From contig JAIOYL010000006.1 in assembly GCA_021741195.1 (NCBI GenBank), positions 1 through 47,729 of the forward strand: 47,729 nucleotides of DNA, read 5' to 3'. Position 1 is the first letter of the stretch. Every line of letters starts with the position of its first letter. Shown here piece after piece: positions 15,118-45,462 of this stretch. The stretch comes from Sneathiella sp. Lineage in GTDB: Bacteria > Pseudomonadota > Alphaproteobacteria > Sneathiellales > Sneathiellaceae. Made by a program: the position numbers and the translations under genes. The notes beneath the pieces are model-generated. The model was not told the origin of the DNA. It did not search any database and saw only the letters and a list, made by a program, of their open reading frames with translations.

Positions 15118-15133
15118 TGGCACAAAGCTTGCG
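15118..15133 (+). promoter_or_regulatory. Sigma-54 (-24/-12) promoter for the 90-residue gene
   Basis: TGGCACAAAGCTTGCG matches the consensus TGGCAC-N5-TTGC with the invariant GG and GC at the correct spacing. Transcription would start near 15144, leaving a leader of about 40 bases before the TTG at 15184. It lies outside any gene, between gltB and the small gene. Confidence 0.75.
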
Positions 15134-15183
15134 TTCATTTGAGTCAAGCAGGAGTTACTTATAAAAATTCAGGAGTAAGGAAA

Positions 15184-15456
15184 TTGCGTAATTCAGCGAC
15201 TATTTCGTCTACCGCCTTCGATGAGTCCCGGCAGCCGTACGCTGACCCGATCATTAGCATGGATGATGTGAAATGGGCCGCGCGGCGGTTTATTCTCGTT
15301 TATGGCGATAACGCACCGGAAATGGCGTTTAAACAGGTCAACCGGCTGGACGGTCTTGGTAAAATACGTACGGCGGAAATGGTTGAGCGGGTCGGGCGCG
15401 AATGCGCCCGGCTTCTGAAAAAGAGTGAATACTTGAGAATTTACCCGATTAACTGA
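15184..15456 (+). CDS. Unknown 90-residue protein with a sigma-54 promoter
   Basis: Not recognised as a known family. The start is read as TTG at 15184, because AGGAGTAAGG lies at 15171-15180; another in-frame TTG at 15139 has no ribosome binding site. The protein is soluble with no signal peptide. After a flexible, serine-rich N-terminus it has a compact, helical region of about 60 residues (DDVKWAARRF, APEMAFKQVNRL, AEMVERVGREC) ending in LRIYPIN. The layout recalls small helical DUF proteins of Alphaproteobacteria, but I cannot assign one. The gene has its own -24/-12 promoter and upstream dyad and follows gltB, so a nitrogen-status role is likely. A perfect hairpin closes the unit. Confidence 0.7.
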   Translation: MRNSATISSTAFDESRQPYADPIISMDDVKWAARRFILVYGDNAPEMAFKQVNRLDGLGKIRTAEMVERVGRECARLLKKSEYLRIYPIN

Positions 15457-15471
15457 CGGCATGCCCGAAGC

Positions 15472-15501
15472 ATTGCCGGATTTTTTATCAAATCCGGCAA
15501 T
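15472..15501 (+). terminator. Perfect 12-bp hairpin after the 90-residue gene
   Basis: ATTGCCGGATTT (15472-15483) pairs exactly with AAATCCGGCAAT (15490-15501) around a 6-base loop, 15 bases past the stop codon. There is no clean T run directly after it, so it may act as a transcript-end stabiliser or a weak terminator. Confidence 0.6.
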
Positions 15502-15543
15502 CAGCCTATTCTACATTTTCTCCGCATGAGGTAAGGTCGCCCC

Positions 15544-16212
15544 ATGCGAACACTCTATCATTTCTGGATATCCCCGGCTTGCCGCAAAGTCCGTTTGGCT
15601 CTTGATGAAAAAGGCCTGAAATTCGACCTGCAAATCGAGAAACCATGGGAGCGGCGATCGGGGTTCCTTGCTAAAAATCCATCGGGAGACGTTCCGGTTC
15701 TCATCGATGAAAATGATATCGTTCTGGCGGACAGTCAGGCGATCTGCGAATACCTTGAGGAAACCTATCACGATGTCCCTTTGATGCCAGAGGACCGGAT
15801 CGGGCGGGCGGAAGTGCGTCGGCTGGTCGGCTGGTTTGACCGGAAATTCTATTCGGAGGTTACCGACAATCTGGTCGAGGAAAAGATCATGAAGCGGCTG
15901 ACCAAATCGGGGACGCCCAACACTGCGGCCATTCGCGCCGGGCATCACAATATTCACTACCACCTTGAATATATCACCTATCTCGTCGAGCGGCGCTCGT
16001 GGCTCGCTGGTGATAATTACAGCCTCGCGGATATTGCCGCCGCGGCGCAGCTTTCCAGCGTCGATTATCTTGGCGACGTTCCCTGGGAACAACATCCGGT
16101 CGCGAAAATATGGTATGCCCGGGCAAAATCACGACCGAGCTTTCGCGGCATCCTCGCCGATAACCTGCCCGGAATGCCCGCGCCGTCACATTATGCCGAT
16201 CTCGACTTCTGA
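15544..16212 (+). CDS. fzlA: FtsZ-binding protein FzlA (glutathione transferase-like)
   Basis: GST-fold protein that, in Caulobacter and relatives, binds and curves FtsZ filaments and sets the rate of constriction. It is not known as a detoxifying enzyme there. It has 222 residues with an N-terminal thioredoxin-like half (MRTLYHFWISPACRKVRLAL, then KPWERRSGFLAKNPSGDVPVL and ADSQAICEYLEE) and a helical C-terminal half. The C-terminal tail (RPSFRGILADNLPG, then SHYADLDF) is the hallmark that separates FzlA from ordinary GSTs and is the reason for the call. It overlaps queG by 20 bases, which suggests coupled translation. Confidence 0.82.
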   Translation: MRTLYHFWISPACRKVRLALDEKGLKFDLQIEKPWERRSGFLAKNPSGDVPVLIDENDIVLADSQAICEYLEETYHDVPLMPEDRIGRAEVRRLVGWFDRKFYSEVTDNLVEEKIMKRLTKSGTPNTAAIRAGHHNIHYHLEYITYLVERRSWLAGDNYSLADIAAAAQLSSVDYLGDVPWEQHPVAKIWYARAKSRPSFRGILADNLPGMPAPSHYADLDF

Positions 16213-17368
16213 TCCGCTTGGCAGTGGGATCGACAAGGAAGGCATTCGTGCAGAAGCCGTGGCCGTTGGTTTCGACGCCGCCGGTTTCACTGGCGCGGAC
16301 TTCGGAGAGCTTCCGGGGCAGCGTCTCGATCAATTCGTTGAGCTGGATCGCTTCGGCGATATGGTTTGGATTGTCGAGAAAAAGGACCGCCGCAGCCACC
16401 CGCAGGCGCTCTGGCCGGAGGTGAAATCGGTAATTATGCTCGGGCTTAATTACGGCCCGGAGGCTGATCCGCTCATACATCACAATGCATCTGAAATTGG
16501 CGCTATTTCCGTCTATGCGCAGGGCCGTGACTATCATGATGTCGTCAAGAAAAAACTGAAACGCCTTGCCCGCTGGATGGTGCAAACCTATGGCGGAGAT
16601 GTGAAGGTTTTTGTCGACACGGCGCCTGTCATGGAAAAACCACTCGCCGAAAAGGCCGGGCTTGGTTGGCAGGGCAAACATACCAATCTGCTCAGCCGTG
16701 AATTCGGCTCCTGGCTGTTTTTGGGAAGCATTTTCACGACGCTTCAAATCACGCCGGATCAGGCAGCTAAAGGCGATTGCGGCTCCTGCACCGCCTGCCT
16801 CGATATCTGCCCGACGAAAGCGTTCCCAGCGCCCTATCAGCTCGATGCCCGCCGCTGTATATCGTACCTGACAATTGAGACGCGATCACATATTGACCGG
16901 GAGCTGCGTCCGCTGATCGGCAACCGGATTTACGGTTGCGACGATTGTCTGGCGGTGTGCCCCTGGAATAAATACGCGAAAACGGCTCATGAGATCGCAT
17001 TGCGGCCACGCCCCGAATTGCGGGCGCCAAGGCTCCGCGACCTTGCATCCCTTGATGATGCCGACTTTCGGGAAATGTTTACAGGCTCTCCGGTGAAAAG
17101 GCTGGGTCGCAACCGTTTTCTCCGCAATGTGCTGATCGCACTTGGCAACGGCGGAGAGGCGGCGGATCTGGACGTTGTAGAGTCGCTTTTGCAAGACGGA
17201 TCACCAATTGTCCGGCTGGCGGCCGTTTGGGCATTTGGACGGCTGGCAGACAAAGAGACATATGGCCGTGGCATGCAGGATCTGTTAGGAAGTGAGGAAG
17301 ATCCGGAGGTTTTGACCGAATGGCATATGAACTATGAGCAAGGTATGAAAAATGAGCAGGCTGGATAG
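16193..17368 (+). CDS. queG: Epoxyqueuosine reductase
   Basis: Catalyses the last step of queuosine synthesis, reducing epoxyqueuosine in the wobble position of tRNAs with GUN anticodons; needs cobalamin and two [4Fe-4S] clusters. It is 391 residues from the ATG at 16193. The N-terminal cobalamin-binding half includes MLGLNYGP, the substrate segment VFVDTAPVMEKPLAEKAGLG and GWQGKHTNL. The ferredoxin-like clusters are CGSCTACLDICPTKAF and CDDCLAVCPWN. A HEAT-like repeat domain fills the C-terminus (RNVLIALGNGG, PIVRLAAVWAFGRL). It overlaps fzlA upstream and the methyltransferase gene downstream by 17 bases. Confidence 0.95.
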   Translation: MPISTSDPLGSGIDKEGIRAEAVAVGFDAAGFTGADFGELPGQRLDQFVELDRFGDMVWIVEKKDRRSHPQALWPEVKSVIMLGLNYGPEADPLIHHNASEIGAISVYAQGRDYHDVVKKKLKRLARWMVQTYGGDVKVFVDTAPVMEKPLAEKAGLGWQGKHTNLLSREFGSWLFLGSIFTTLQITPDQAAKGDCGSCTACLDICPTKAFPAPYQLDARRCISYLTIETRSHIDRELRPLIGNRIYGCDDCLAVCPWNKYAKTAHEIALRPRPELRAPRLRDLASLDDADFREMFTGSPVKRLGRNRFLRNVLIALGNGGEAADLDVVESLLQDGSPIVRLAAVWAFGRLADKETYGRGMQDLLGSEEDPEVLTEWHMNYEQGMKNEQAG

Positions 17369-17840
17369 CTTCATACGGCGGATGTCCGCGCAGCGCGACT
17401 GCCTTGATTATGCAGCGGGACTTATCACGGACATGAGGGGCTCGGTCCTTGAGCTTGGGCTTGGTAATGGCCGAACATTTGATCATTTGCGCTCGCTGAT
17501 GCCGGGCCGGGATATTTACGTGTTCGACCGGCATGTAAGAGCGCATCCGGACTGCATTCCCGATGAAGAACATATGATTATTGGCGATTTCCGTGAAACC
17601 GTTCCGGCGGCAAAGGCAAAAATGGCGTCGCCCGCGCTGCTGGTCCATTGCGATATCGGTTCCGGTGACAAGGACCTGAGCGTCTTGCTGGCGCGGGAGT
17701 TAGGCGGTAGCCTGCCCACACTTTTGGCCAAAGGCGCCATTGTCGTCAGCGACCAGCCGTTCAACGTTAAAAGCTGGCGACCCCTGCCACTGCCCAAAGG
17801 CGTCGCGGAAGGCCGCTATCATATATATAAACAGATGTAA
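17352..17840 (+). CDS. Small class I SAM-dependent methyltransferase-like protein
   Basis: A 162-residue Rossmann-type protein with the SAM-binding motif SVLELGLGNGRTFDHL (about residues 31-46), an acidic residue at the end of the next strand (VFDRH), and a later HCDIGSGD. The substrate is unknown. The fold is short and lacks an obvious catalytic motif such as NPPY, so rRNA/tRNA N-methylation is not implied. Its start overlaps the queG end, so it is probably co-transcribed with fzlA and queG. It converges on the SDR gene, 6 bases apart. Confidence 0.7.
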   Translation: MSRLDSFIRRMSAQRDCLDYAAGLITDMRGSVLELGLGNGRTFDHLRSLMPGRDIYVFDRHVRAHPDCIPDEEHMIIGDFRETVPAAKAKMASPALLVHCDIGSGDKDLSVLLARELGGSLPTLLAKGAIVVSDQPFNVKSWRPLPLPKGVAEGRYHIYKQM

Positions 17841-17846
17841 GCGTTT

Positions 17847-18650
17847 CTAACGCGCGGTATAGCCACCGTCGACGATAAATTCCGTCCCGGTGACGAAACC
17901 GGATTCGTCTGACGCAAGGAATAGAACCATCGAGGCGATCTCTTCCGGCCGTCCGAGGCGTCCCAGCGGATGCGATTGTTCCAGACGTCGTTGCTCCGTT
18001 TCCCTCGCGCTCTCTTCGATTTTATCGAACCGGCGCATGACCATCGGGGTTTCGATATAGCCCGGATGGACCGAGTTTACCCGAACGTTAAATCCGAGTT
18101 CCGCGCATTCTAGGGCGGCAGCCTTGGTGAACAAACGCACGCCACCCTTGCTCGCTGCATAGGCGGAAATGTTGGGCATGCCGACAAAACCGAGAACCGA
18201 TGAAATATTGATAATCGAGCCGCCGCCGTTCTCTTTCATCACGCGGACCGCGGCCTGAGTTCCCAGAAAAGTTCCGTCGAGATTGATCGAGATTGTCTGC
18301 CGCCAGAAATCGAGGTTTGTATCGAGAAGTGCTTTCGCTCGTCCGATGCCGGCTGAGTTGAGGAGAATATCGAGTCGGCCCCAGCGGGCAACGATCGCAT
18401 CGGTCACCGCTTTCCATTCCTCCGGGCTGACGACATCAAGGTTCATGTAAAACGCGTCGTACCCTTTCCCGACGAGGCTGGCGGCAAGCTCCGCTCCCTT
18501 TTCAGGTTCAATATCGGTGAGCGCCAGTTTCGCGCCTTCCCGCGCAAAGCGCTCAGCGGTCGCGCGGCCAATTCCGGAAGCCGCGCCTGAAATCAGCGCA
18601 ACTTTACCTTCAATCCGTCCTGGATCCTTGGCGTGATTTTCCCCTGCCAT
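17847..18650 (-). CDS. Short-chain dehydrogenase/reductase
   Basis: Classical NAD(P)-dependent SDR of 267 residues. The cofactor motif is SGAASGIG (about 20-27), and LLNSAGIG is a variant of the usual NNAG. The active-site Ser is in IINISSVLGF, and Tyr and Lys are in YAASKGG. The C-terminus IVDGGYTAR is typical. An aspartate after the second strand (LTDIEP) points to NAD(H). The substrate cannot be read from sequence; relatives act on 3-hydroxy or cyclic alcohols. A strong GGGGAGA site precedes the ATG at 18650. Neighbouring genes give no pathway clue. Confidence 0.85.
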   Translation of the reverse strand: MAGENHAKDPGRIEGKVALISGAASGIGRATAERFAREGAKLALTDIEPEKGAELAASLVGKGYDAFYMNLDVVSPEEWKAVTDAIVARWGRLDILLNSAGIGRAKALLDTNLDFWRQTISINLDGTFLGTQAAVRVMKENGGGSIINISSVLGFVGMPNISAYAASKGGVRLFTKAAALECAELGFNVRVNSVHPGYIETPMVMRRFDKIEESARETEQRRLEQSHPLGRLGRPEEIASMVLFLASDESGFVTGTEFIVDGGYTAR

Positions 18651-18725
18651 ATTTTTCTCCCCATTTTCTTATTATTGTCCGGAGAGTGTGCAGGAAGCGC
18701 GAAAAGGGTGCAAGCCCCATCCGTC

Positions 18726-19922
18726 TTAAGCCGCCGCTCTTTTTAAAATATAGGTTACGACAGGCGTGTGCCCCTTAAGCTCTGTCTCTCCACGTGGTAC
18801 CAAGGTGAAGTCGCCCCCCAGCAAATCGGCGGTATCCTTTGAGAGCCATATTTGGCCCGGCTCTGCTGCCTGCTGCAGGCGGGCTGCAATATTGACGGCG
18901 TCGCCCCAGATATCATAGGAATATTTGGCATGCCCGATCACACCGGCAACAACCGACCCTGTATTTACCCCGACCCGTATGCCAAGGCCGTGATATTGCG
19001 TGGCGCAGATGGCGGTCATATAGGAAACTGTCTCGCAGGCGAAATTGGCGGCGTTCGCGGCATTTTTTTCCGGTTCCCCCTGCAATCCACCGCAGACCAT
19101 ATAGGCATCCCCGATCGTCTTGATCTTTTCAAGTCCATAGCGGGCGGCCATTTCATCAAATGTCGAGAAAATCTGATCTAGTAACGTCACAATTTCTTCC
19201 GGCGTCTTGTTCATGGAATAATTCGTGAAGCCGGAGATATCGGCAAACAGGATCGTGACATTGTCGAGCCGGTCGGCGATCGGACGCTGCTCCTGCTTTA
19301 ACCGCTCGCCGATGGCTTCCGGCAACATGTTACAGATCAGATCTTCAGAGCGCTGGCGTTCCTTTGCCAGCAGATCGTAAGTCCGATCCTTCTGACCGAC
19401 GAAATAGTTGAGCAATACAAAGGCGACAATGGATACACCGCTTAAATTCATGACAAACAAGGCGGTGACCAGCTCGGGTGGTAATTGGTTATCCGGCGCC
19501 ACTGCAGAAGAGCCGATCGTGGCACCGACGGCCACCAGCAGAATAAAGGCAATAAACCATCGGGCGGCGACCTGGCGGTTCGCGAAAACGAACGCGCCCA
19601 TCGGGCTGATCAGGGACCATATGACGACGGCAGAGGAATTGACAAATCCGCCCAGCTCCCACATCAGCAGGAAAGGCAACATAAGTGACAGGAAAAGCTG
19701 GCTCGTGCGGAGAAGCGTGAACCCTTTCTCGTGACGGAAGAGGGCGAGAGAAATAAAGGAAATTACCGCGAAGCTCCAGGGGATGGCGGCCGCCCTGAAC
19801 TCTCCGAAATAGGCATAGAGCCCGCCCCAGAAAACGGCGGCGATTGCCATCATCAGCGCTGACAACACAAGCAGGCGGTGCGACAGTTCCTTGTTTTCAG
19901 ACATTTTCGGAGGCATATTCAT
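18726..19922 (-). CDS. Membrane-anchored class III adenylyl cyclase
   Basis: Makes cAMP from ATP. About 398 residues from the ATG at 19922 (a TTG at 19931 and ATGs at 19916 and 19904 are alternatives). The N-terminal half has about six hydrophobic membrane segments with short loops, a membrane sensor region without a named domain. A short coiled linker leads to the cyclase domain: metal-binding Asp in ILFADISGFT, the GLEKIKTIGDAYMVCGG segment with the second Asp, and GIRVGVNTGSVVAGVIG. The adenine-selecting Lys (EKIKTIGD) and Asp (YDIWGDAVN) favour ATP over GTP. It stands between the SDR and xthA genes. Confidence 0.88.
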   Translation of the reverse strand: MNMPPKMSENKELSHRLLVLSALMMAIAAVFWGGLYAYFGEFRAAAIPWSFAVISFISLALFRHEKGFTLLRTSQLFLSLMLPFLLMWELGGFVNSSAVVIWSLISPMGAFVFANRQVAARWFIAFILLVAVGATIGSSAVAPDNQLPPELVTALFVMNLSGVSIVAFVLLNYFVGQKDRTYDLLAKERQRSEDLICNMLPEAIGERLKQEQRPIADRLDNVTILFADISGFTNYSMNKTPEEIVTLLDQIFSTFDEMAARYGLEKIKTIGDAYMVCGGLQGEPEKNAANAANFACETVSYMTAICATQYHGLGIRVGVNTGSVVAGVIGHAKYSYDIWGDAVNIAARLQQAAEPGQIWLSKDTADLLGGDFTLVPRGETELKGHTPVVTYILKRAAA

Positions 19923-20014
19923 CAATGGCAATTCCAGTTGACTTCGCTGGGGTCTGCGGCCAGTTGATTATCCCCATCTCTGTGCCGTGGACAAGTCAAA
20001 TGAAACAGATAATT

Positions 20015-20827: not shown

Positions 20828-20851
20828 TCTCGGGCTCTCATCGGTAATTTG

Positions 20852-21445: not shown

Positions 21446-21509
21446 GGAAGTCTCTGTCTTTGCGGGAACCGGCAGAATATCTAGCATGGATCAGGTTGTA
21501 AATTCATGC

Positions 21510-22130: not shown

Positions 22131-22230
22131 GTCTATCTCAATTTCGTATTAATTTTAAACGGCATCCTACGGGATGTTCTTCAGATATGGGGCTACCGCG
22201 TCGAATTGCCAGCGAAAACAGCCAACAGCT

Positions 22231-25964: not shown

Positions 25965-27194
25965 CTAACGCAGGTCTTCCTCCGGATAGGCGCCGATTTT
26001 ATGGATACTGAGATCAGCACCAAGGAATTCGTCCTCCTGCGACAGACGGATGCCGCTGATCGCCTTGAGCAGACCATAGACGACGAAGCCGGCGAAGAGC
26101 GCGTAAGCACAGCCGAGGAGGCTGACAACCAGCTGGGCGACGAAACTGACACCGCCAAGGCCACCCAGAGCCTCAAGTCCGAAAATCCCGGCGGCAATGC
26201 CGCCCCAAAGACCGCAAAGTCCATGCAGCGGCCAGACACCGAGCACATCATCCACTTTCAGCCGGTTCTGGCAGAAAGTGAAGGCGACGACGAACAGCCC
26301 GCCAGCAATGCCGCCTGTCGCCAACGCGCCAAGAGGATGCATGATATCCGAGCCTGCGCAAACAGCGACGAGACCTGCTAGCGCGCCATTATGGACGAAA
26401 CCGGGATCGTTGCGCCCCGCAATCAGGGCAGCGATGATGCCGCCAACCATTGCCATTAAGGAGTTCACGGCGACAAGGCCGGAAATGCCGCCGATGGACT
26501 GGGCGCTCATGACATTAAAGCCGAACCATCCGATACAAAGGATCCAGGACCCAAGGGCGAGAAACGGGATATTGGAGGGAGGAATGCCAATCACGCGGCC
26601 TTCTGTTGTATAGCGACCGCGCCGGGCGCCAAGCAAAATAACGGCGCCGAGGGCAATCCAGCCACCGACGGCATGAACGACGATTGATCCTGCGAAATCG
26701 TGGAACCCGGCCCCAAACATGTTTTCGATGGCCTCCTGAAGGCCGAAATTCCCGTTCCAGATAATGCCTTCGAAAAAAGGATAGATCAGGGCAGTCAATA
26801 TCGCCGTTGCGGCAAGTTGTGGCCAGAATTTGGCGCGCTCTGCAATGCCGCCCGAAATAATGGCAGGGATCGCGGCAGCGAAGGTAAGCAGAAAGAAGAA
26901 TTTTACGAGGTCATAGCCATTACCGGCAAACGCGTAACCCTCCGCTTCCGCCTCGCCGGAGAGGACCGCGGCATTGACAAGAAAATCGACGCCATAGGCA
27001 ACCGAATAGCCAATAATGAAATAACTGACCGTAGAAACGCTGAAATCGACCAGGATCTTGACCAAGGCGTTGACCTGGTTTTTTCGGCGGACGGTGCCGA
27101 CCTCAAGAAAAGCGAAACCGGCATGCATGGCGAAAACAAGAATAGCGCCTAGTAGCACAAACAGGACGTCCGTGCCCGTAATTCCCTCAGACAT
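25965..27194 (-). CDS. Ammonium transporter (second Amt)
   Basis: Inner-membrane Amt/MEP/Rh channel for ammonium, 409 residues with 11 expected membrane segments. Family signatures are DFAGSIVVHAVGGWIALGA (first pore histidine) and WPLHGLCGLWGG (second pore histidine). It has no cleavable signal peptide, unlike AmtB next door, and it ends in a short acidic tail (EEDLR). It is not in the glnK-amtB unit: a 226-base gap separates them, and that gap holds its own sigma-54 promoter match (27252-27267) and inverted repeat. GGGAG lies 9 bases before the ATG. Confidence 0.93.
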   Translation of the reverse strand: MSEGITGTDVLFVLLGAILVFAMHAGFAFLEVGTVRRKNQVNALVKILVDFSVSTVSYFIIGYSVAYGVDFLVNAAVLSGEAEAEGYAFAGNGYDLVKFFFLLTFAAAIPAIISGGIAERAKFWPQLAATAILTALIYPFFEGIIWNGNFGLQEAIENMFGAGFHDFAGSIVVHAVGGWIALGAVILLGARRGRYTTEGRVIGIPPSNIPFLALGSWILCIGWFGFNVMSAQSIGGISGLVAVNSLMAMVGGIIAALIAGRNDPGFVHNGALAGLVAVCAGSDIMHPLGALATGGIAGGLFVVAFTFCQNRLKVDDVLGVWPLHGLCGLWGGIAAGIFGLEALGGLGGVSFVAQLVVSLLGCAYALFAGFVVYGLLKAISGIRLSQEDEFLGADLSIHKIGAYPEEDLR

Positions 27195-27251: not shown

Positions 27252-27267
27252 ATCAAGGAGCGTGCCA
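27252..27267 (-). promoter_or_regulatory. Sigma-54-like promoter for the second amt gene
   Basis: The minus strand reads TGGCACGCTCCTTGAT. The -24 TGGCAC is perfect and spacing is correct; the -12 element is TTGA rather than TTGC, the same deviation as in the glnK promoter. The predicted start is near 27242, about 48 bases before the ATG at 27194. Confidence 0.65.
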
Positions 27268-27326
27268 AGAGAGATATGCTTATTTTTTCAGCGTTCTGGA
27301 TAACTGGAAACCGCAGTTAAACAGAT

Positions 27327-27372
27327 AATTGCCCAAATTCTAATCATTTTCATGATCAAAATTTGGGCAATT
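27327..27372. promoter_or_regulatory. Perfect 13-bp inverted repeat, candidate activator site for the second amt gene
   Basis: AATTGCCCAAATT (27327-27339) and AATTTGGGCAATT (27360-27372) are exact inverses with a 20-base spacer. Each arm carries the TTGCC-Y-AAA element seen upstream of glnK, urtA and the 90-residue gene. The pair begins 60 bases upstream of the -24 box at 27267. Confidence 0.55.
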
Positions 27373-27420: not shown

Positions 27421-28746
27421 CTAGAAGGACTGTGAACCTTGCCCGAACTCTGGATAGGCTTCCAGACCGAGTTCTGCCTTGTCCAGACCCATCAACTCAT
27501 CTTCCTCAGATGCCCGGATACCGACGGTGTATTTCAGGATCAACCAGAAAATGGTGCTGAGGACGACGACGAAGACGCCGATCGCGACAACGCCAGTAAG
27601 CTGTGTCAGGAAGGTTGCTTCCGGGTCGGAGATGGCGACCGCCAGTGTTCCCCAGATACCGGCGCAAAGATGTGCCGGAATTGCGCCGACGACATCATCG
27701 ATCTTCAGTTTGTCAAGAAGTGGAACGGCGAAGACGACGATTGCGCCACCAACACAGCCAATAAGAATTGCCATGCCAACGGTTGGATCGGCGGGCTCCG
27801 CGGTGATCGAGACGAGACCGGCGATGGCGCCGTTGAGAGCCATGGTCAGATCGACCTTCTTATACATGATCTGGGTCAGGATCATCGCCGTGATAACGCC
27901 GCCCGCTGCCGCCATGTTTGTATTGGCATAGACATTGGACATTTCAATGGCGCTTGCCGCGGAGCCAAGGGCAAGAACGGAACCACCGTTAAAGCCGAAC
28001 CAGCCGAGCCAGAGAATGAACGTGCCGAGAGTTGCCAACGGCAGGTTTGCGCCGGGGATTGGGTTCACACGGCCTTCGGCATTGAATTTGCCTTTGCGCG
28101 CTCCGAGGATAATAGCGCCGGTAAGAGCAGACCAGCCGCCGACAGAATGTACAAGAGTGGAACCGGCATAGTCGGAGAAACCCATTTCTGAGAGCCAGCC
28201 GCCACCCCAGACCCAGGACCCCTGAATCGGGTAGATGATAGCGGTCAGGAGAACGACGAAACCGAGGAATGGCCAAAGCTTGATCCGTTCGGCAAGCGCA
28301 CCGGAAACGATCGATGCAGCGGTCGCGACGAAGACCATCTGGAAGAACCAGTCGGAAGATGCAGAATAACCGCCGTCAGAAAATGTACCGGCAAGAGCAT
28401 CGGTATCTACTGGTCCCCAGAACGGGCTGAGTGTGCCGATATATCCTGTCACATCCAGGTACATCAGGTTATAGCCGACCAGATAAAATGTCAGGCCGGA
28501 AATGGCATAAAGGGAAATATTCTTGAGGCAGATGGTTGCCGTATTCTTAGAGCGGACGAGACCGCTTTCCAGCATCGCAAATCCAGCACCCATCCACATC
28601 ACGAGGGCGCCATTTACCAAAAACGAAAAGGTATTCAGGATATAGGCTGTTTCGCCGTCGACGGCGGCGTAGGCCGGCACGGCGCCAACGAGGCCGAATA
28701 CGGCTAGTGCCGCGGTGGCTATTTTTAGGTTTTTCAAGTTACGCAT
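27421..28746 (-). CDS. amtB: Ammonium transporter AmtB
   Basis: Inner-membrane ammonium channel, 441 residues from the ATG at 28746, which has a strong AGGAGAT site. It begins with a cleavable signal peptide (MRNLKNLKIATAALAVFGLV, cleavage expected after PAYA near residue 27), as in E. coli AmtB. Eleven membrane segments follow. DYAGSTLVHSVGGW holds the first pore histidine and IPAHLCAGIWGTLAV the second. It follows glnK by 10 bases, the classic pair in which GlnK plugs AmtB when nitrogen is plentiful. Expression would come from the sigma-54 promoter ahead of glnK. Confidence 0.95.
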   Translation of the reverse strand: MRNLKNLKIATAALAVFGLVGAVPAYAAVDGETAYILNTFSFLVNGALVMWMGAGFAMLESGLVRSKNTATICLKNISLYAISGLTFYLVGYNLMYLDVTGYIGTLSPFWGPVDTDALAGTFSDGGYSASSDWFFQMVFVATAASIVSGALAERIKLWPFLGFVVLLTAIIYPIQGSWVWGGGWLSEMGFSDYAGSTLVHSVGGWSALTGAIILGARKGKFNAEGRVNPIPGANLPLATLGTFILWLGWFGFNGGSVLALGSAASAIEMSNVYANTNMAAAGGVITAMILTQIMYKKVDLTMALNGAIAGLVSITAEPADPTVGMAILIGCVGGAIVVFAVPLLDKLKIDDVVGAIPAHLCAGIWGTLAVAISDPEATFLTQLTGVVAIGVFVVVLSTIFWLILKYTVGIRASEEDELMGLDKAELGLEAYPEFGQGSQSF

Positions 28747-28756: not shown

Positions 28757-29188
<432 letters not shown>

Positions 29189-29256: not shown

Positions 29257-29304
29257 AATTGCCTAAAAAATATGCAAAAATGAGAATTTGATTATTTTTT
29301 AGGC
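29257..29304. promoter_or_regulatory. Inverted pair of GCCTAAAAAATA, candidate activator site for glnK
   Basis: GCCTAAAAAATA (29261-29272) and its exact inverse TATTTTTTAGGC (29293-29304) flank a 20-base spacer. The first arm is part of AATTGCCTAAAAAATA (29257-29272), which recurs exactly upstream of urtA. TTGC-N11-GCAA at 29259-29277 has the 19-bp geometry of NtrC sites. The pair starts about 83 bases upstream of the -24 box and overlaps the amidase stop codon, so it might also help to end the amidase transcript. Confidence 0.5.
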
Positions 29305-30666
29305 GTTCAATGGCTTGAGTGCCCGTTCGACTGCTGCGCTAAGGCGGAGCAGCTTCCCTTCCGTATAAGCGGGAGACATCAGCATCATGCCGATGGGCAA
29401 TCCGTCCAGCAGGCCGGCAGGCAGGGTTGTGGAACAAAGCCTGAGTAAATTGGCAAGCCTTGTCAGGCTAATTGACATCATCGTGGCGCGCAAGTATGCC
29501 TCGAGATTCTCCAGCAGCGGCGCTATCGCCGGAGGATGTTCCGGTTGGGTCGTGCCGACCACCAAATCAAAATCAGCGGTTTGCCTAAGATACTCTCCTT
29601 CTAGGCGCTCCATTCCTCTGTAAAGAGCTGCAAGATCAACAGCGGTGAATTTTTCCGCGGCCAGAATGCGTTGTTCGATAGGTGCGTACATGCAGCCGGG
29701 GTTGGATTTCATCTGGTCCCCATACATCATGCAGGCTTCAATGGCAGCAGGGCTGCCGTGCTTGGCCGACAGCGCAACCACGTCATCAAAGGCAGGGACA
29801 GGACCATCAGTCACTTCCGCGCCAGCCTTCACGAGCAATGCCAGTCCCTCATGGATTTTTCCCGTAATCGCCGGATCGGCGAGCGCATCGAACTGGGACG
29901 TCGCGCGTAAAATCCGCACCCCCTTGAGTGATGCTCCCGACAGATCGGCAGCGGGCTTGCCCGACAATATGGCGCAAAGCGCGTTGGCGTCGGCGACATT
30001 CCGCGTCAGCGGGCCAACGGTATCTTGCGAATAGGAAAGGGGCACTGCGCCTTCGAGCGAGATCAGGCCATGTGTCGTCTTGAGTCCGGTAATGCCGCAC
30101 CATGCAGCAGGAATACGCACGGAACCGGCGGTGTCCGAACCGATGGCGGCAGGCGCCAGTCCAAGCGCAACGGACAAGGCCGCCCCGGCGGAGGAGCCGC
30201 CCGGTACCCGGTCTGTTTTTTTATCATAGGGATTTGGACCTGTGCCGGTCCAGGGATTGACACCAATTCCCGAAAAAGCGATATCCGGCATATTCGTCTT
30301 GCCAAGGCAGACGAGCCCAGCCCTGGTCGCACGCTGTAGGCATTCCGCATCCTTCACAGGAATGCGTCCCTGATACAGTTTCGTGCCGGCCTCAGTGGCT
30401 GTCCCCGCCGTATCGAACAGGTCTTTCCAGGAGATGGGCACACCATCCAGCGGTCCACGGCGTATTCCTTGTTTTGCGCGGATAGAGGCGGCTTTCGCCT
30501 CCGCCAATGCCCGTTCCTCGGTCAAGCGGACATAAATGCGCTTCTCGGGATCGAACTTCCGGATGCGCTCAAGAAAATATTGCGCAAGATCAATTGGATC
30601 AATCGCGCGTTCGCCTATAAGATGCCCAAGGTCAAGGGCCGTCATGCCGTGCCAGGATTTTGTCAT
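29299..30666 (-). CDS. Amidase (amidase-signature family)
   Basis: Hydrolyses an amide or a related C-N bond; the substrate is unknown. It has 455 residues with the Ser-cisSer-Lys triad in view: Lys in GVPISWKDLFDTAG (about residue 81), the glycine/serine-rich PGGSSAGAALSVALG, and the nucleophile in GSDTAGSVRIPAAWCG. The family includes GatA, but the sequence lacks gatB/gatC neighbours and the C-terminal half differs, so a stand-alone amidase is favoured. It is divergent from the UbiH/COQ6-type gene, with a 58-base gap between the starts. Confidence 0.85.
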   Translation of the reverse strand: MTKSWHGMTALDLGHLIGERAIDPIDLAQYFLERIRKFDPEKRIYVRLTEERALAEAKAASIRAKQGIRRGPLDGVPISWKDLFDTAGTATEAGTKLYQGRIPVKDAECLQRATRAGLVCLGKTNMPDIAFSGIGVNPWTGTGPNPYDKKTDRVPGGSSAGAALSVALGLAPAAIGSDTAGSVRIPAAWCGITGLKTTHGLISLEGAVPLSYSQDTVGPLTRNVADANALCAILSGKPAADLSGASLKGVRILRATSQFDALADPAITGKIHEGLALLVKAGAEVTDGPVPAFDDVVALSAKHGSPAAIEACMMYGDQMKSNPGCMYAPIEQRILAAEKFTAVDLAALYRGMERLEGEYLRQTADFDLVVGTTQPEHPPAIAPLLENLEAYLRATMMSISLTRLANLLRLCSTTLPAGLLDGLPIGMMLMSPAYTEGKLLRLSAAVERALKPLNA

Positions 30667-39065: not shown

Positions 39066-39068
39066 AAC

Positions 39069-39099
39069 GAGACTTTTATACTTGTGATATGAGACTTTT
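39069..39099 (+). promoter_or_regulatory. 22-bp-spaced direct repeat GAGACTTTT, candidate HxlR operator
   Basis: GAGACTTTT at 39069-39077 and 39091-39099, two helical turns apart, directly upstream of the HxlR start at 39065 and in the leader of the divergent gene. A partial inverse, AGTCTT, follows at 39106-39111. Same-face direct repeats suit a regulator with two tandem DNA-binding domains. Confidence 0.5.
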
Positions 39100-39143
39100 G
39101 TGGATAGTCTTGATACTTAGAGCGACAAGACGGAATAATAAGA

Positions 39144-40118: not shown

Positions 40119-40570
40119 TCAACGTTGCCGCGGTTCGACTTTCGATTTGAAATCCAGATGTCCAGCGACCAATGATCACGATGGCGGAGCAGCCAGAGGG
40201 CGGCAAACCCTCCAAGCGCCGCCACGGCAATGGCGTTATTGCGATTGACCGGGAAATTATCCTCGATAACAAAGGGCGCAATCAGGGTCGGAAAAATGAC
40301 GATTACCGTAACAAGATGCATGAGGAACAGGAGCCCATAGGTAAAGATGCGCCAAAACCCGAGCGCGGCCAGCACACAAATGACGATCTGTGCGCCGCCC
40401 ATGAAATAGGGCATTGTCTCGCCAATGTCGATTCCGTGAAAATATCCCCAGATACGAACATATTGTCCCGGTTCAATAATCTTGTTGGTGGCCCAGACGA
40501 ATATAAACCAAGCAAGCCCAACGCGCAGCAGCAAGAGCGCAAGCGCCTCCTGTTTGTAGTGATCAGTCAT
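40106..40570 (-). CDS. DoxX-like small membrane protein
   Basis: A 154-residue inner-membrane protein with about four hydrophobic segments (LALLLLRVGLAWFIFVWATN, YFMGGAQIVICVLAALGFW, FLMHLVTVIVIFPTLIAPF, NAIAVAALGGFAALWLL). The layout and the early arginine in LLRVGLAW resemble DoxX/DoxD-type proteins, whose role in most bacteria is unknown. The ATG at 40570 has a GAAGGG site; an upstream in-frame start is less likely. It overlaps the end of the convergent MDR gene. Confidence 0.65.
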   Translation of the reverse strand: MTDHYKQEALALLLLRVGLAWFIFVWATNKIIEPGQYVRIWGYFHGIDIGETMPYFMGGAQIVICVLAALGFWRIFTYGLLFLMHLVTVIVIFPTLIAPFVIEDNFPVNRNNAIAVAALGGFAALWLLRHRDHWSLDIWISNRKSNRGNVDQPT

Positions 40571-40789
40571 TGCGGCCCTTCTTTCATAATTTAGAGAAAC
40601 CCTTTTCGGCGTAATAGCAGAGGGCGGGCGCAATTCACGTACACAAGTTCTCACCGTTATGTGAACAAAATAGGTAATTAAATAAAACGATGGTCACACT
40701 GTGAGTATTGAGGCAAATCAATGCGGGCCAGGTTGCATCCATATTTAACCTGCTTATCTATGATATAGCTAAATCGAAAAGGAGCAGAA

Positions 40790-41023
40790 ATGACGCACGT
40801 CCCACATGAGCTCGCTGAAGAATTTCCAGAAGCAAAAGAGCAGATTCATACACTCACTCAATCTGACGTGCATTTCGCAAAGCTTGCGGATGAATATCAT
40901 TCCCTGAATCGGGAAATTCACCGGATTGAAACCAATGTCGCCCCGGCGGACGAAGGATATGAAAAACAACTCCGGCGGCAGCGCCTGGCAATAAAAGACC
41001 AGATCAACACCTATCTTGCCTAA
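40790..41023 (+). CDS. YdcH/DUF465 family protein
   Basis: A 77-residue, all-helical, highly charged protein of the DUF465 family; the pattern LTQSDVHFAKLADEYHSLNREIHRIE followed by LRRQRLAIKDQINTYL is diagnostic. Predicted as a helical hairpin or short coiled coil in the cytoplasm; function unknown. AAAGGAG lies 7 bases before the ATG. It converges on the formate/nitrite channel gene. Confidence 0.9.
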   Translation: MTHVPHELAEEFPEAKEQIHTLTQSDVHFAKLADEYHSLNREIHRIETNVAPADEGYEKQLRRQRLAIKDQINTYLA

Positions 41024-41037
41024 GCCGCAGTCCGTTT

Positions 41038-41838
41038 CTAAGATTTCCGCAAATATATAATCCAGTAGACGAGCGCGACGAGCCCGCCGCCGCCGACAAT
41101 ATTGCCGGCGGTTACAACCAGTAAATTTAGGAAGAGTGCAGAAAATGTGACAATTTCCGATCCCGCGAGATATCCAATCGGAATTAGGTACATATTGGCG
41201 ACGGAATGCTCAAATCCGAGGGCGACAAAAGCGGAGATCGGGAAAATAATCGCGAGGATTTTCCCAGTCACGGTGCGGGCTGAGAAACAAAGCCAAACAG
41301 CAAGGCACACCAGCGTATTGCACAGGATGCCGCGGAAGAAGGCTTCATGAAGAGGTAGCGCGATCTTAGCATCTGCAATGCTGACGGCGGTTTTTGCGAC
41401 AGCGCCACCGTCAAGCAACAGGATACCTGAAAGGGTAATGATTGCGGCAGTTCCAAGGGCGCCGATAAAATTACCGATATAGACAATGCCCCAGTTCCGA
41501 AGTAGCTGACGGTGCGTTACTTTGCGGCTCGCCCAGGCCATGGCGATAAGATTATTGCCGGTAAAGAGCTCTGCGCCGCCCACGATAACCAGGATGAGGC
41601 CCGTTGAAAATGCAAGGCCACCCAGAAGACGAGCCACGCCAAACCCCAAACCGCTGTCCGTGATTACCAAGGTGTAGAATGCAGCGCCCATGGCAATAAA
41701 CGCACCGGCCAGGATAGCCAGCATCAAGGTCGGAATAAATTCCTGCGTCGTCTTGGCTACCCCCATCGTTTCAACCCTCAGTGCAATCTCCCTGGGGCTG
41801 TAGGCGTCAAAAGCATGTTCGAGCGGATCGTTGGGCAT
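41038..41838 (-). CDS. Formate/nitrite transporter family channel
   Basis: FocA/NirC-type pentameric channel for small anions, 266 residues with six membrane segments. The signature GGAELFTGNNLIAMAWASRKVT (first signature, between segments 2 and 3) and the EHSVANMYLIPIG segment with the central-pore histidine are both visible. Formate, nitrite or hydrosulphide cannot be told apart from sequence. No formate lyase or nitrite reductase gene is nearby. The cluster of nitrogen genes makes nitrite plausible, not shown. Confidence 0.9.
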   Translation of the reverse strand: MPNDPLEHAFDAYSPREIALRVETMGVAKTTQEFIPTLMLAILAGAFIAMGAAFYTLVITDSGLGFGVARLLGGLAFSTGLILVIVGGAELFTGNNLIAMAWASRKVTHRQLLRNWGIVYIGNFIGALGTAAIITLSGILLLDGGAVAKTAVSIADAKIALPLHEAFFRGILCNTLVCLAVWLCFSARTVTGKILAIIFPISAFVALGFEHSVANMYLIPIGYLAGSEIVTFSALFLNLLVVTAGNIVGGGGLVALVYWIIYLRKS

Positions 41839-41970
41839 ATGTATGACAGTCTTATAAGATTATTCTTTATACCGTACGGGAAAGCGCCTTCTATGCAAAG
41901 GCTTCGCCGTAATCAACGGATGCTGCAGGATATTGCTTTTGCCGGAATAATTTCAGGGTAAACTGAAACG

Positions 41971-42390
41971 ATGATCAGGATAACCGCAAATATCGTTCTC
42001 GATGACGACGAGATCCGGGAAAGCTTCATCCGGGCATCCGGACCCGGCGGGCAAAATGTTAACAAAGTGGAGACAGCTGTCCAGATCCGGTTCGACGCAA
42101 AGAACAGTCCGAATCTTTCTGTTCCCGTATATGAAAGGCTTGCCGAACTCGCCGGACAGAAAATGACAAAGGACGGAGTTCTGGTCCTGACCGCCAGTGA
42201 GTTTCGTAGTCAGGATCGAAATCGCAAGACAGCTATCGACCGGCTCACGGCCTTGATTCGGAAAGCAGCCGTGGCCCCCAAATACCGCCGTCCGACGAAG
42301 CCAACATATTCCTCGAAGCTGAAACGGCTCGAAAAAAAGCAGCAGCGGGGCGGCATCAAAAAAAATCGGAGGAGAGTTGAACCGGACTGA
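41971..42390 (+). CDS. arfB: Ribosome-rescue peptidyl-tRNA hydrolase ArfB
   Basis: Frees peptides from ribosomes stalled at the end of broken mRNA, entering the empty A site. It is 139 residues, the usual size. The catalytic GGQ is in SGPGGQNVNKVETAV (GGQ at about 26-28), then SEFRSQDRNRKTAIDRL. A basic tail follows (PTKPTYSSKLKRLEKKQQRGGIKKNRRRVEPD, positions about 107-139), which in the family lies in the mRNA channel. The start ATG at 41971 fits the family beginning. It stands alone, convergent with nothing near. Confidence 0.93.
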   Translation: MIRITANIVLDDDEIRESFIRASGPGGQNVNKVETAVQIRFDAKNSPNLSVPVYERLAELAGQKMTKDGVLVLTASEFRSQDRNRKTAIDRLTALIRKAAVAPKYRRPTKPTYSSKLKRLEKKQQRGGIKKNRRRVEPD

Positions 42391-42665
42391 ACGGTTAGCT
42401 TAGCCTTTCCCCGCGAATTCCGCCCGGGGTTGGTTATTTGGCGGCGTCCGGCTATTCCTATATTTGCATGCTTCTCACTGTGGCCCATTGACTTATTGAA
42501 AATACAGTCTAAATAGTGGCCTACGTGTTACATTCGTTTTGACTTGCCTAATTAGCCGGTACGCCGACTAGCTTAGTTATTCCCTGACAATGTGATCGTT
42601 AAACGGACTGCAGTCGCGCATGGTGTGCGGCGCGGAGTTCACGTTGCTATAAGAGGAATAAAACT

Positions 42666-42875
42666 ATGGCTACTGGTACTGTAAAATGGTTCAACCCGAC
42701 AAAGGGTTTTGGATTTATCGAGCCTGATGATGGCTCAAATGACGCTTTCGTTCACATTTCGGCCGTTGAACGCGCCGGACTGAATACCCTGAATGAAGGC
42801 CAGAAGGTTTCTTTCGAACTCGAAGCCGGCAAAAACGGCAAATCTTCTGCGGAAAATCTTTCCGTAATCAAATAA
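42666..42875 (+). CDS. Cold-shock protein, CspA family
   Basis: A 69-residue single-stranded nucleic acid-binding OB-fold protein. RNP1 KGFGFIEP and RNP2 DAFVHISAV are intact, with the start [17 protein letters not shown] standard. AGAGGAAT lies 7 bases before the ATG. The 275 bases upstream hold no gene; a long structured leader is typical for csp genes and may be here (a TTGACT box at 42539 has no convincing -10 partner). A GC-rich hairpin follows at 42888. Confidence 0.95.
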
Positions 42876-42887
42876 TTGCGAAAAAGC

Positions 42888-42916
42888 GCCGCCTCCGGCA
42901 ATTTGTTGGGGGCGGC
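42888..42916 (+). terminator. GC-rich hairpin after the csp gene
   Basis: GCCGCCTCC (42888-42896) pairs with GGGGGCGGC (42908-42916), one wobble pair, 12 bases past the csp stop. No T run follows, so it may stabilise the transcript or act with Rho. Confidence 0.5.
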
Positions 42917-43093
42917 ACCACGATGCAAGCAATAAGCAACATCGCTATCTATAGAGACGTTAAGAAGCTGAGCGATATTTTTGTGGCCTGTCTCTTGTCT
43001 CGGACTTTGCAAAAAAGCTCAAAAGCTTTCGGCACTGCCATGCGGTAGAAAATTATCGCTTCTTATGCTCAAGCCGCTGCAAAGGAATCCAGA

Positions 43094-43261
43094 ATGAAAA
43101 AATCCCTGAAATCAACGGCGAGCGAACAGTTCACTCTGAGCCAGAAGAAGGCAAGAACCTTTATCAAGGAAAAGGACAAGGCGGAGCAGGAGCGAGCGGA
43201 TAAAACTGCTCGACTTAAAGCTCTTCGCTTGGCAAAGGCAACCTCAGACCGTAAAAAATAA
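43094..43261 (+). CDS. Small Lys/Ala-rich protein (55 residues)
   Basis: A short, highly charged and helical protein, beginning MKKSLKSTASEQFTLSQKKA and ending LKALRLAKATSDRKK. No hydrophobic core, signal or motif is evident. AAGGAA lies 8 bases before the ATG at 43094, and the codon use looks coding. Similar small proteins with a closing LRALRLAKEA-like sequence are found across Alphaproteobacteria without assigned function; nucleic acid binding is possible from its charge. The 218 bases between the csp gene and this one hold a 41-codon frame at 42923 without a ribosome site, which I do not count. Confidence 0.7.
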   Translation: MKKSLKSTASEQFTLSQKKARTFIKEKDKAEQERADKTARLKALRLAKATSDRKK

Positions 43262-43663
43262 CTCGGTCACGTGAACTTCATTCGGGCAATCTGACGGCTT
43301 GCAAGCTATTTCCCACCGTTGCCGAACCATATCCTCACCAAATATGAGCTGGACTGCTCCGACATCGTAAACGATGATAGCCGTGCAAGTGGTAAAAAAC
43401 ATATAGGATCGAAGACGCTTTCAAGGAACTCTCTATCCGGGAACAATTCAGCGACAAGGGACGCGAGCGTTGATGTTTGGAAACTGGAAAATTGCCTTCC
43501 TGTTGCTTATCGGGTGGCCTGAGCGTGTCTCAATCCGCACCCTGCCGTCTGAGAAAGGTGGAAGCACCCTCGCCATCTATAGCCGTTCAGTCTACGGCCA
43601 ATCAGATTTTGGCACCAATAAAAGCCGAATTGGAACCTCGCTTTCTACACTTGAAAACGCATT
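43262..43663. other. Gene-poor stretch, no supported gene
   Basis: About 400 bases between the 55-residue gene and the convergent membrane protein. Short frames exist (for example 43470-43667 and 43477-43761), but none has a ribosome binding site, a family match or a start with support. It may contain decayed coding sequence. Confidence 0.5.
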
Positions 43664-44407
43664 CTAGGTCATTGTTTTTCGGGGTTTGTCGGCGGCCTTG
43701 CCCGCATACATGTATAAGCCATCCCACGTCCGCTCAGCGTATGACAAAAGGGCATATATGAAGACTATCACGCCAAACATCTCCAAACACTCTTCAAGGT
43801 TTGCAATAAGGTAGTAAGTTAAATCTCCATACTTTTCCCACTCTATCGGCTGGTACCACGATACGCCGATATAGAGACCACCGACCGCTTCCATACCCAA
43901 TGCGCCGCTGACAAAAAGTACGCCAGATAGCGCAAACAAAAGCCGTGTCCTCGGCGGTAATGATAAAATAAATCTAAAATAGACGACCGCTAAAACCAGG
44001 ACAAAAGTGCCATATGGAATAAGCCATACAAAATTGTCAAAATCGGACGGCGCGTGGAACCGCCAGAAAATCTTGATTATGAGTTCATGAATAGAAATAT
44101 TTTCGTCAACAGAAAGGTAAAGGAAAATAAGTGCAAGGCCTAGCCAATATTTAGAGTCTTTGCTCCTTTCTATCCGTCGAATGAGCCCCAACGCGAGAAG
44201 TATAGTGGCGGCAAAAAGCAAATCAAATGAGGAAAAATAGGATGGAATATTCGCTTCAGTATCGACATCAAAAAGATAATATAACGTAGGGTGCCAACGA
44301 TGGTATCCATATGCCAGAATTGACACAAATAAACTGGTGGCAACAAGCAATATTGCGACAGCCGATAGAAATAAAAATATCTTTTTTGAATCCAATATAA
44401 CGCCCAT
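43664..44407 (-). CDS. Unknown multi-pass membrane protein
   Basis: Not assigned to a named family. It has 247 residues with about six or seven hydrophobic segments, a first at residues 10-33 (FLFLSAVAILLVATSLFVSI). A conserved-looking LSVDENISIHELIIKIFWRF lies in the third/fourth loop; a similar D-E-x-x-x-x-H-E pattern occurs in a widespread family of uncharacterised membrane proteins. Charged, polar residues (Asp-Glu, His-Glu) in this position suggest a functional site. The gene is more AT-rich than its neighbours and lies in a gene-poor patch, which points to recent acquisition. The ATG at 44407 is the only good start. Confidence 0.7.
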   Translation of the reverse strand: MGVILDSKKIFLFLSAVAILLVATSLFVSILAYGYHRWHPTLYYLFDVDTEANIPSYFSSFDLLFAATILLALGLIRRIERSKDSKYWLGLALIFLYLSVDENISIHELIIKIFWRFHAPSDFDNFVWLIPYGTFVLVLAVVYFRFILSLPPRTRLLFALSGVLFVSGALGMEAVGGLYIGVSWYQPIEWEKYGDLTYYLIANLEECLEMFGVIVFIYALLSYAERTWDGLYMYAGKAADKPRKTMT

Positions 44408-44783
44408 TTACTATCCTTGATTGTTGTAAAAAACTGGCCATGTTAATTGCAAATGCAGAATTTCAGGTGCGGGGTAAAATTTTTTACAACCCCCCATACT
44501 GATAAATTCCAAATTACCCTCGTACCCAAAATTCCAATTTTCCTGATCTTGAATATTATGACATACCATCACTTTCCTAGTAGAATGTTATCCGTTTGGC
44601 AATAGGAAATGAGACCTCGATTTACTGACTGGCAGTGCCCGTTTTCTGCCAATATGGCCGCCTTCACGCTTAAAATTAACAGCCTTATCCGTTTGTGAGC
44701 ACTACTGTTTGTTGAGTCCAAAGGCTTGTGCCGTAGTCCTTTTCAAAACTACCCTCCCCCCCTTGAAGGGGCAGCCTCGATCT
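44408..44783. other. AT-rich intergenic stretch without a gene
   Basis: 376 bases upstream of the membrane protein gene. No frame of use, no tRNA. It contains a C-tract with a 13-base palindrome, CCCCTTGAAGGGG (about 44760-44772), and is otherwise featureless. Confidence 0.5.
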
Positions 44784-45247
44784 TTAATCCGCCTTGCCAA
44801 GATGTTCCAGCGTTAGGCCGTTCGCAGTCCGCTTCTTAAATCCCGTCAAGTTGGTGTTTTCAGATTTAGGTGTTCCGTCCTTTTCAACCGCATAAATACC
44901 GTTGTCGGCGATCTCTATGACATTGAGATAGCTGTGCATCTTGTCATTCTCCTTCAGTTGTTCGCCAAAATAAGCCGTGATGAAATGCTGGGTGATATTG
45001 TTCATGCGGAGCGTATCCCAATCCGCATCCGCATAATGCTCGAACGGGATAAAATCAAGATTGGTGACAGGCTTCCAGTATCCTATCGTTGCCGACTGGA
45101 GCGCCCCAGCTATATTCCGGTGCTGGCTTCGGCTACACCGCCGCCTGCCGTAATTACCGAACCATATGCCCCCATGGAATAGCCTATCAGCCCGATATTG
45201 GAGGTATATTCACATGTTATCGGGGGAATCGCTATAGATTTTTGCAT
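44784..45247 (-). pseudogene. Remnant of an alpha/beta hydrolase
   Basis: Two pieces of one protein in different frames on the minus strand. The first frame (ATG at 45247 to TAG at 45110) contains the nucleophile-elbow sequence GLIGYSMGAYGSVITAGGG. About 45116 the reading moves to another frame, which carries on without stop as PVTNLDFIPFEHYADADWD and then MNNITQHFITAYFGEQLKEN to the end at 44784. The C-terminal part resembles the end of dienelactone hydrolase-like enzymes. The roughly 100 residues that normally lie between the elbow and this end are missing, as is the N-terminus. So a deletion plus frameshift has destroyed the gene. An open 73-residue frame (44784-45005) remains but is not a complete gene. 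Confidence 0.7.
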
Positions 45248-45310
45248 AAGAAGCTTATTAACTGCATATAAATTAGGCGGATATTTATTAATTCAGTAGG
45301 GATTCATAAA

Positions 45311-45345
45311 AATTGCCTAAAAAATAGCCATTTTTCTAAAATGGC
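45311..45345. promoter_or_regulatory. Candidate activator sites upstream of urtA
   Basis: AATTGCCTAAAAAATA (45311-45326) is identical to the element upstream of glnK. It abuts a 19-bp palindrome, GCCATTTTTCTAAAATGGC (45327-45345; 8-bp arms, 3-base centre). Together they lie about 100-136 bases upstream of the -24 box at 45447, a typical enhancer distance. Binding by an NtrC-type protein is inferred. Confidence 0.5.
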
Positions 45346-45446
45346 GATCCTTTGGACAGAGCGTATTTTTCAAAAAAATTTTGTGAGCCACAAATAATTA
45401 TTTGTTTTCATAGGTTTATAAATTCAGGCAAGCGGATGGATAGTTC

Positions 45447-45462
45447 TGGCATGACCCTTGCT
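45447..45462 (+). promoter_or_regulatory. Sigma-54 (-24/-12) promoter for the urt operon
   Basis: TGGCATGACCCTTGCT matches the consensus TGGCAY-N5-TTGCW, with the invariant GG and GC at correct spacing. The predicted start is near 45473, leaving a leader of about 39 bases before the ATG at 45512. Confidence 0.8.

Follow-up and report, generated by a model that had tools for sequence, protein, structure and literature searches.

Four sigma-54 promoters and their neighbours

The window, by which we mean the whole stretch of 47,729 nucleotides analysed here, comes from a Sneathiella draft genome of 3.38 Mb in 220 contigs, of which it makes up 1.4%. It carries four −24/−12 promoters of the sigma-54 type, upstream of a small gene that follows gltB, of a second ammonium transporter gene (amt2), of glnK-amt1 and of urtA. 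The initial annotation joined these promoters into a single nitrogen regulon by way of one upstream element, AATTGCCYAA or its mirror, which it took for a lineage form of the NtrC site. We find this proposal supported at glnK, amt2 and urtA, and likewise at glnB, at dusB and at two further sigma-54 promoters elsewhere in the genome. It fails at the small gene, whose enhancer element is common to flagellar flgI promoters instead, so at sequence level the four promoters do not make up one nitrogen regulon. The palindrome shared by the others is best read, by a wide margin, as an NtrC box. The genes and promoters at issue, in window order, are:

10389 to 14960, plus strand: gltB, glutamate synthase large subunit, 5′ neighbour of the small gene (Pfam GATase_2, Glu_synthase, GXGXG)
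15118 to 15133, plus strand: sigma-54 promoter TGGCACAAAGCTTGCG of the small gene (at most two mismatches in 23 of 23 same-genus loci with upstream DNA)
15184 to 15456, plus strand: small gene, an open reading frame (ORF) of 90 aa with a TTG start, predicted helical hairpin (model pLDDT 81.2)
25965 to 27194, minus strand: amt2, ammonium transporter (Pfam PF00909)
27252 to 27267, minus strand: sigma-54 promoter TGGCACGCTCCTTGAT of amt2 (at most two mismatches in 14 of 14 same-genus amt2 loci)
27421 to 28746, minus strand: amt1, ammonium transporter, 3′ of glnK (PF00909; TIGR03644 607.5 bits, cut-off 514)
28757 to 29095, minus strand: glnK, PII protein (Pfam P-II; identity at most 96% within the genus)
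29159 to 29174, minus strand: sigma-54 promoter TGGCACGGGTCTTGAT of glnK-amt1 (match in the window and in same-genus loci)
45447 to 45462, plus strand: sigma-54 promoter TGGCATGACCCTTGCT of urtA (kept in same-genus loci)
45512 to 46798, plus strand: urtA, binding protein of a urea-type ATP-binding cassette (ABC) transporter (Pfam Peripla_BP_5, 558.6 bits)
46871 to 47728, plus strand: 5′ part of the next urt gene (urtB-like), cut by the window end (assigned by position; weak Pfam BPD_transp_2 match, below cut-off)

The four promoters are found where the initial annotation had placed them, each in intergenic DNA and each one mismatch away from TGGCAC-N5-TTGCW. The start codons lie 66, 73, 79 and 65 bases beyond the first base of these sites, in window order. 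Transcription starts about 26 bases past the first base of a sigma-54 site; assuming this rule, the leaders would measure about 39–53 bases, consistent with the 40–55 bases first estimated.

AATTGCCYAA occurs in exactly five copies in the window, every one of them at the four promoters. Read by eye, the element has 16 letters in common between glnK and urtA and forms a 13-letter inverted pair at amt2, both as originally described. The TTGC-N11-GCAA geometry noticed at glnK is also correct, and is the frame of the true motif, of which AATTGCCYAA represents only one half. At the small gene, however, the 10-mer sits inside a different palindrome, and the claim of the same element at all four promoters falls with it.

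A palindrome upstream of the nitrogen genes

The palindrome TTGCCYAA-N3-TTRGGCAA is common to the promoters of glnK, amt2 and urtA and, outside the window, of glnB. Its consensus, TTGCCYAAAWTTTRGGCAA, can be written as TGCC-N9-GGCA or as TTGC-N11-GCAA. In the window, the boxes lie in pairs, one pair each at amt2, glnK and urtA, with a weaker candidate beside the first of these promoters (distances are from box centre to sigma-54 site; palindromes are given without strand):

27276 to 27294: weaker box-like word beside the amt2 −24 element, uncertain (score 15.5)
27329 to 27347: NtrC box TTGCCCAAATTCTAATCAT of amt2, centre −71 (score 19.7)
27352 to 27370: NtrC box ATGATCAAAATTTGGGCAA of amt2, centre −94 (score 22.7)
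29259 to 29277: NtrC box TTGCCTAAAAAATATGCAA of glnK, centre −94 (score 21.8)
29288 to 29306: NtrC box TTGATTATTTTTTAGGCGT of glnK, centre −123, not caught by the 10-mer (score 18.7)
45262 to 45280: second NtrC box CTGCATATAAATTAGGCGG of urtA, centre −176 (score 15.7)
45313 to 45331: NtrC box TTGCCTAAAAAATAGCCAT of urtA, centre −125 (score 20.3)

At a score of 17 the window contains five matches, compared with none in each of 20 window shuffles.

We assembled up to 230 bases before conserved sigma-54 sites from the same genus. These sets comprise 13 glnK promoters (L104, at a contig edge, left out), 7 glnB promoters (the same-genus loci returned by the search, not all genomes), 14 amt2 promoters (same-genus orthologues; other Amt paralogues left out, two out-of-genus orthologues tested apart) and 19 urtA promoters (the same-genus orthologues among 23 oriented loci; the four from outside the genus tested apart, the weak paralogues L092–L098 left out), or 53 nitrogen promoters in all, together with 23 of 24 small-gene promoters (L059, at a contig edge, left out). 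The NtrC-box matrix is palindromic and 19 bp long. For training across genes it was seeded with a consensus of ours, and dinucleotide shuffles served as the control.

A matrix trained on amt2 and urtA ranked 12 of 13 glnK and all 7 glnB promoters higher than every one of 40 shuffles, and one trained on glnK and glnB did so for 13 of 14 amt2 and 19 of 19 urtA promoters. With either training, none of the 23 small-gene promoters exceeded all 40 shuffles. Unseeded training on glnK, urtA or glnB alone led to the same palindrome each time. The box is moreover repeated within promoters: at a score of 9, two or more boxes are found at 13/13 glnK, 7/7 glnB, 13/14 amt2 and 19/19 urtA promoters (52/53 in total; 0.05–0.3 per set in shuffles), and at a score of 14 at 13, 7, 11 and 18 of them, respectively (49/53; none in shuffles), as against 0 of 23 for the small gene. 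Conservation in relatives, on which the initial annotation had let its proposal depend, is seen at each of these four nitrogen genes over the genus. Among orthologue-like promoters from outside the genus, 10 of 15 have a box above all 100 shuffles, indicating that the form is not private to Sneathiella.

We also scanned the genome with a matrix trained without it. Seventy-seven genomic sites match TGGCAC-N5-TTGCW with at most one mismatch; 76 could be scanned upstream (one stretch, C83:9, was too short), and the downstream stretches of all 77 served as the control. Scores of 14 or more were reached by 6 of 76 upstream stretches and by 0 of 77 downstream stretches. These top six belong to amt2, glnK, urtA, glnB, an uptake-type operon and a TorF porin gene, and the downstream control never reaches their scores. 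The promoter of the small gene scores 4.0. The scan follows the test that the initial annotation had put forward.

The uptake-type operon (L204, G000:C83 15029–19500) has a sigma-54 promoter with an NtrC box at −171 and encodes a BMP binding protein, a RutB-like isochorismatase (a match below cut-off), YjgF and an ABC ATPase; it is predicted to take up a nucleobase- or amide-like nitrogen source. The TorF-family porin gene (L281, 1155–1942, G000:C41) combines a sigma-54 site without mismatches with an NtrC box at −72, and its product is a predicted nitrogen-regulated outer-membrane channel.

The small gene and the flagellar promoters

The protein encoded by the small gene is present in 24/24 same-genus genomes and in 0/36 others searched. 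It matches no Pfam or NCBIfam family at E 0.001. Across the 24 family members, six Pfam families appear at E ≤ 1, each in one member (the best being DUF6961, E 0.016), and comparison of the structural model with PDB folds gives 29 matches at E ≤ 10 and none at 0.001.

The element conserved upstream of this gene is a 15-bp palindrome, approximately (C/G)GG(A/C/T)A(A/G)AATTT(T/G)CC(G/C), that starts 75–155 bases before the sigma-54 site. In the window it is represented by:

15022 to 15036, no strand: FlbD-type box GGGCAATTTTTGCCG, its midpoint 89 bases 5′ of the sigma-54 site (18.8 when scored against a matrix from other species)

With the small-gene matrix from other species, the four best genomic sigma-54 sites precede an unknown gene, the small gene, a GGDEF gene and flgI. 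Over the genus, the small-gene matrix places 14/14 flgI sigma-54 sites above all 40 shuffles. In the opposite direction, a motif derived ab initio from the 14 flgI promoters marks 22/23 small-gene promoters and 0/53 nitrogen promoters. FlbD (775.5 bits, cut-off 750) is encoded in the flagellar cluster of this genome, and the genome also codes for FliX, with fliX adjoining flgI in divergent orientation. Given the flgI-derived motif and the presence of both regulators, the FlbD flagellar regulon is in our view the most likely home of the small gene.

Other FlbD-type boxes were also noted. A GGDEF gene (L276, G000:C40 11442–12256) has a perfect sigma-54 match together with such a box, which suggests synthesis of cyclic di-GMP within the flagellar regulon. 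At window positions 42850–42864, in a stretch with few long ORFs, lies a strong palindrome of this type, CGGAAAATCTTTCCG (score 18.0), with no sigma-54 match of at most one mismatch nearby.

Another enhancer-binding protein that also acts at flagellar promoters might bind the small-gene palindrome in place of FlbD. The presence of the box at the GGDEF gene and at the unknown gene would fit such a protein; on the other hand, the activator that the flagellar cluster of this genome encodes is FlbD, and fliX adjoins flgI. On this evidence we consider a different activator rather unlikely. Far less probable is the original grouping of all four promoters into one NtrC regulon with one shared element. 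Its strength is the exact 10-mer, found at all four promoters and nowhere else in the window, but the NtrC-box matrix raises no small-gene promoter above its shuffles, scores low at the window's own copy, and meets a different palindrome that is kept both at the small gene and at flagellar promoters. We therefore reject a single element common to the four.

Regulators, proposed autoregulation and related systems

The sigma factor itself is encoded in the window:

1954 to 3507, minus strand: rpoN, sigma-54 (Pfam AID, CBD, DBD; TIGR02395 439.5 bits, cut-off 277.35)

This is the only match to TIGR02395 in a profile search of the genome. Within window 681–4891, rpoN is flanked by EIIA (ptsN-like) and S30AE (hpf-like) genes and, opposite these, by an ABC ATPase (lptB-like) gene and an lptA-like gene.

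The genome encodes an NtrC (708.1 bits, cut-off 558.6) that carries the GAFTGA motif, and an NtrX that does not. With a single rpoN found, and GAFTGA present in NtrC but not in NtrX, the activator is likely to be NtrC. The boxes might instead be bound by the response regulator next to it, NtrX: ntrX lies in the same cluster and its product has a Fis-type helix-turn-helix. Yet the alphaproteobacterial sites of this shape described in PMC5424462 and PMC10746234 are assigned to NtrC, and an NtrX without the GAFTGA loop should not activate sigma-54 polymerase. We thus disfavour NtrX as the activator and regard its binding in place of NtrC as quite improbable.

NtrC boxes are also found at dusB, on contig C101. 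In same-genus relatives dusB and ntrC share one stretch, with dusB about 2.1 kb ahead; by gene order, dusB of C101 should here precede the putative ntrB-ntrC of contig C220, where a 349-aa ORF lies before ntrC. Two boxes are located at −38 and −11 from the dusB ATG, 27 bases apart. We examined 16 regions and that of this genome; 12 same-genus loci have full upstream DNA, and in 12/12 of these both boxes occupy the same places. Both are also present in G033, from another family; in G025 they are shifted and the second is weaker. Contig ends truncate L217 and L227, and L231 showed no dusB. Judged by eye, the first box overlaps the end of a sigma-70-like promoter (TTGCAG-17-TATAGT) and the second covers the start codon, an arrangement that suggests repression.

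We consider the following model very likely. Under nitrogen limitation, phosphorylated NtrC would bind clusters of 17–19-bp palindromes, TTGCCYAA-N3-TTRGGCAA, located about 70–180 bases before the sigma-54 promoters of glnK-amt1, amt2, urtA and, elsewhere in the genome, glnB, and its GAFTGA loop would activate sigma-54 polymerase. The two boxes on the putative sigma-70 promoter and start codon of dusB would let NtrC repress its own operon. For the small gene (start 15184) the probable activator would be FlbD, acting on the gene's sigma-54 promoter through the different 15-bp palindrome common to flagellar promoters. In this scheme the motifs, how they recur among genes and species, and the occurrence of rpoN, of NtrC with GAFTGA, of FlbD and of FliX are observed; we infer the pairing of proteins with motifs, the phosphorylation, the response to nitrogen and the sense of regulation.

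Several results weigh against the model. As a word, AATTGCCYAA is not enriched genome-wide (14 copies versus 15 for the reversed control). Five of the 14 copies fall inside the window; of the nine beyond it, six overlap an ORF of at least 90 aa, and none lies within 220 bases of any of the 77 sigma-54-like sites. Allowing at most three mismatches, the symmetric 19-mer likewise shows no excess (40 places versus 44 for the control), and we rejected both the 10-mer and the symmetric consensus as genome-wide words. In the genome scan, upstream and downstream counts are equal at a score of 8 (10 each) and nearly so at 10 (8 versus 6), so the signal resides in strong matches only. Unseeded training on amt2 alone failed, settling on another word. 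Box spacing is kept within each gene and varies among genes (29 or 18 bases at glnK, 19 at glnB, 22–23 at amt2, 27 at dusB and mostly 50–51 at urtA, where neighbouring boxes stand 50–51 bases apart in 13 instances among the 19 same-genus promoters), which argues against one helical phase. Promoters of the same gene within the genus are related by descent and are not independent. For the flagellar part, the small-gene matrix places only 4/13 flgK and 7/13 fliK sites above all 40 shuffles, and this genome's own flgK and fliK promoters score a weak 8.5. Finally, Caulobacter NtrC is reported to lack GAFTGA and to act at sigma-70 promoters (PMC10274813); alphaproteobacterial NtrC is thus not uniform, and the check for GAFTGA is needed here.

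Chance AT-rich words near promoters, with which the background frequency of the 10-mer would agree, are practically excluded by the held-out tests against dinucleotide shuffles and by the shuffled-window counts at a score of 17, and chance is already disfavoured for glnK, amt2, urtA, glnB and dusB.

Of the 40 matches to the symmetric pattern, seven, all of them outside the window, were examined for gene context. Those on C83 and C101 are the uptake operon and dusB, and those on C47, C170 and C212 lie inside ORFs. The remaining two, preceding uvrC on C197 and a POR-type oxidoreductase gene on C160, have none of the 77 listed sigma-54 sites alongside. The palindromic box on C197, ATGCCTATTTTTTAGGCAT (G000:C197 1818–1836, L206), lies 222 bases 5′ of the long uvrC ORF.

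These results provide a matrix of Sneathiella NtrC sites that holds up under cross-validation, and indicate that two sigma-54 regulons can be separated by their enhancers, correcting a grouping that was plausible but wrong. They also yield predicted new targets, the BMP/RutB-like uptake operon and the TorF porin, and a flagellar link for the small gene. Tentatively, and with much less confidence, the helical-hairpin protein, so far seen only in Sneathiella and close relatives and presumably fired by FlbD and sigma-54, might tie flagellar assembly to nitrogen assimilation or serve a step of motility, alongside self-control of NtrC through the two boxes on the dusB −10 element and start codon.

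The initial annotation had set the element apart from the textbook NtrC site. It does differ from the enterobacterial box of E. coli, TGCACCAnnnTGGTGCA (PMC8743547), with which it has its length, its TGC...GCA ends and an A-nnn-T core in common, while the inner ACC/GGT is replaced by CYA/TRG. Over the 53 nitrogen promoters, the best match averages 5.28 mismatches to TGCACCAnnnTGGTGCA (5.86 in shuffles) and 2.21 to the form found here (4.96 in shuffles). The form is not new, however: a non-enterobacterial NtrC box has already been published for alphaproteobacteria (PMC5424462, PMC10746234), with mutants in the first of these reports. In Paracoccus denitrificans, the RegPrecise box (T/C)GC(C/A)NNNNTTNNT(G/A)GCA occurs at glnBA, amtB and nasTS, and mutation of the nasT copy abolished induction (PMC5424462). 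That box resembles ours in its 17-bp length and outer TGCC...GGCA, and differs at one specified inner position (13, T there and A/G here). The rhizobial motif described for Sinorhizobium meliloti, TGC-N11-GCA, has the same frame as the Sneathiella box (PMC10746234).

The proposed autoregulation also has a counterpart in S. meliloti, where NtrC binds PdusB and exerts negative autoregulation on dusB-ntrBC (PMC10746234); binding was demonstrated there, and is what the boxes suggest here. The placement of two boxes on the promoter and start codon is our reading of the Sneathiella genomes. For the flagellar regulon, the nearest comparison is Caulobacter, in which FlbD acting through ftr controls sigma-54 flagellar genes (PMC3930126, PMC3096577). 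Sneathiella likewise has FlbD and FliX, and enhancer sites accompany its sigma-54 flagellar promoters, a likeness of components and layout. Unlike the FlbD-ftr set described in those reports, the set here would include a small gene beside gltB.

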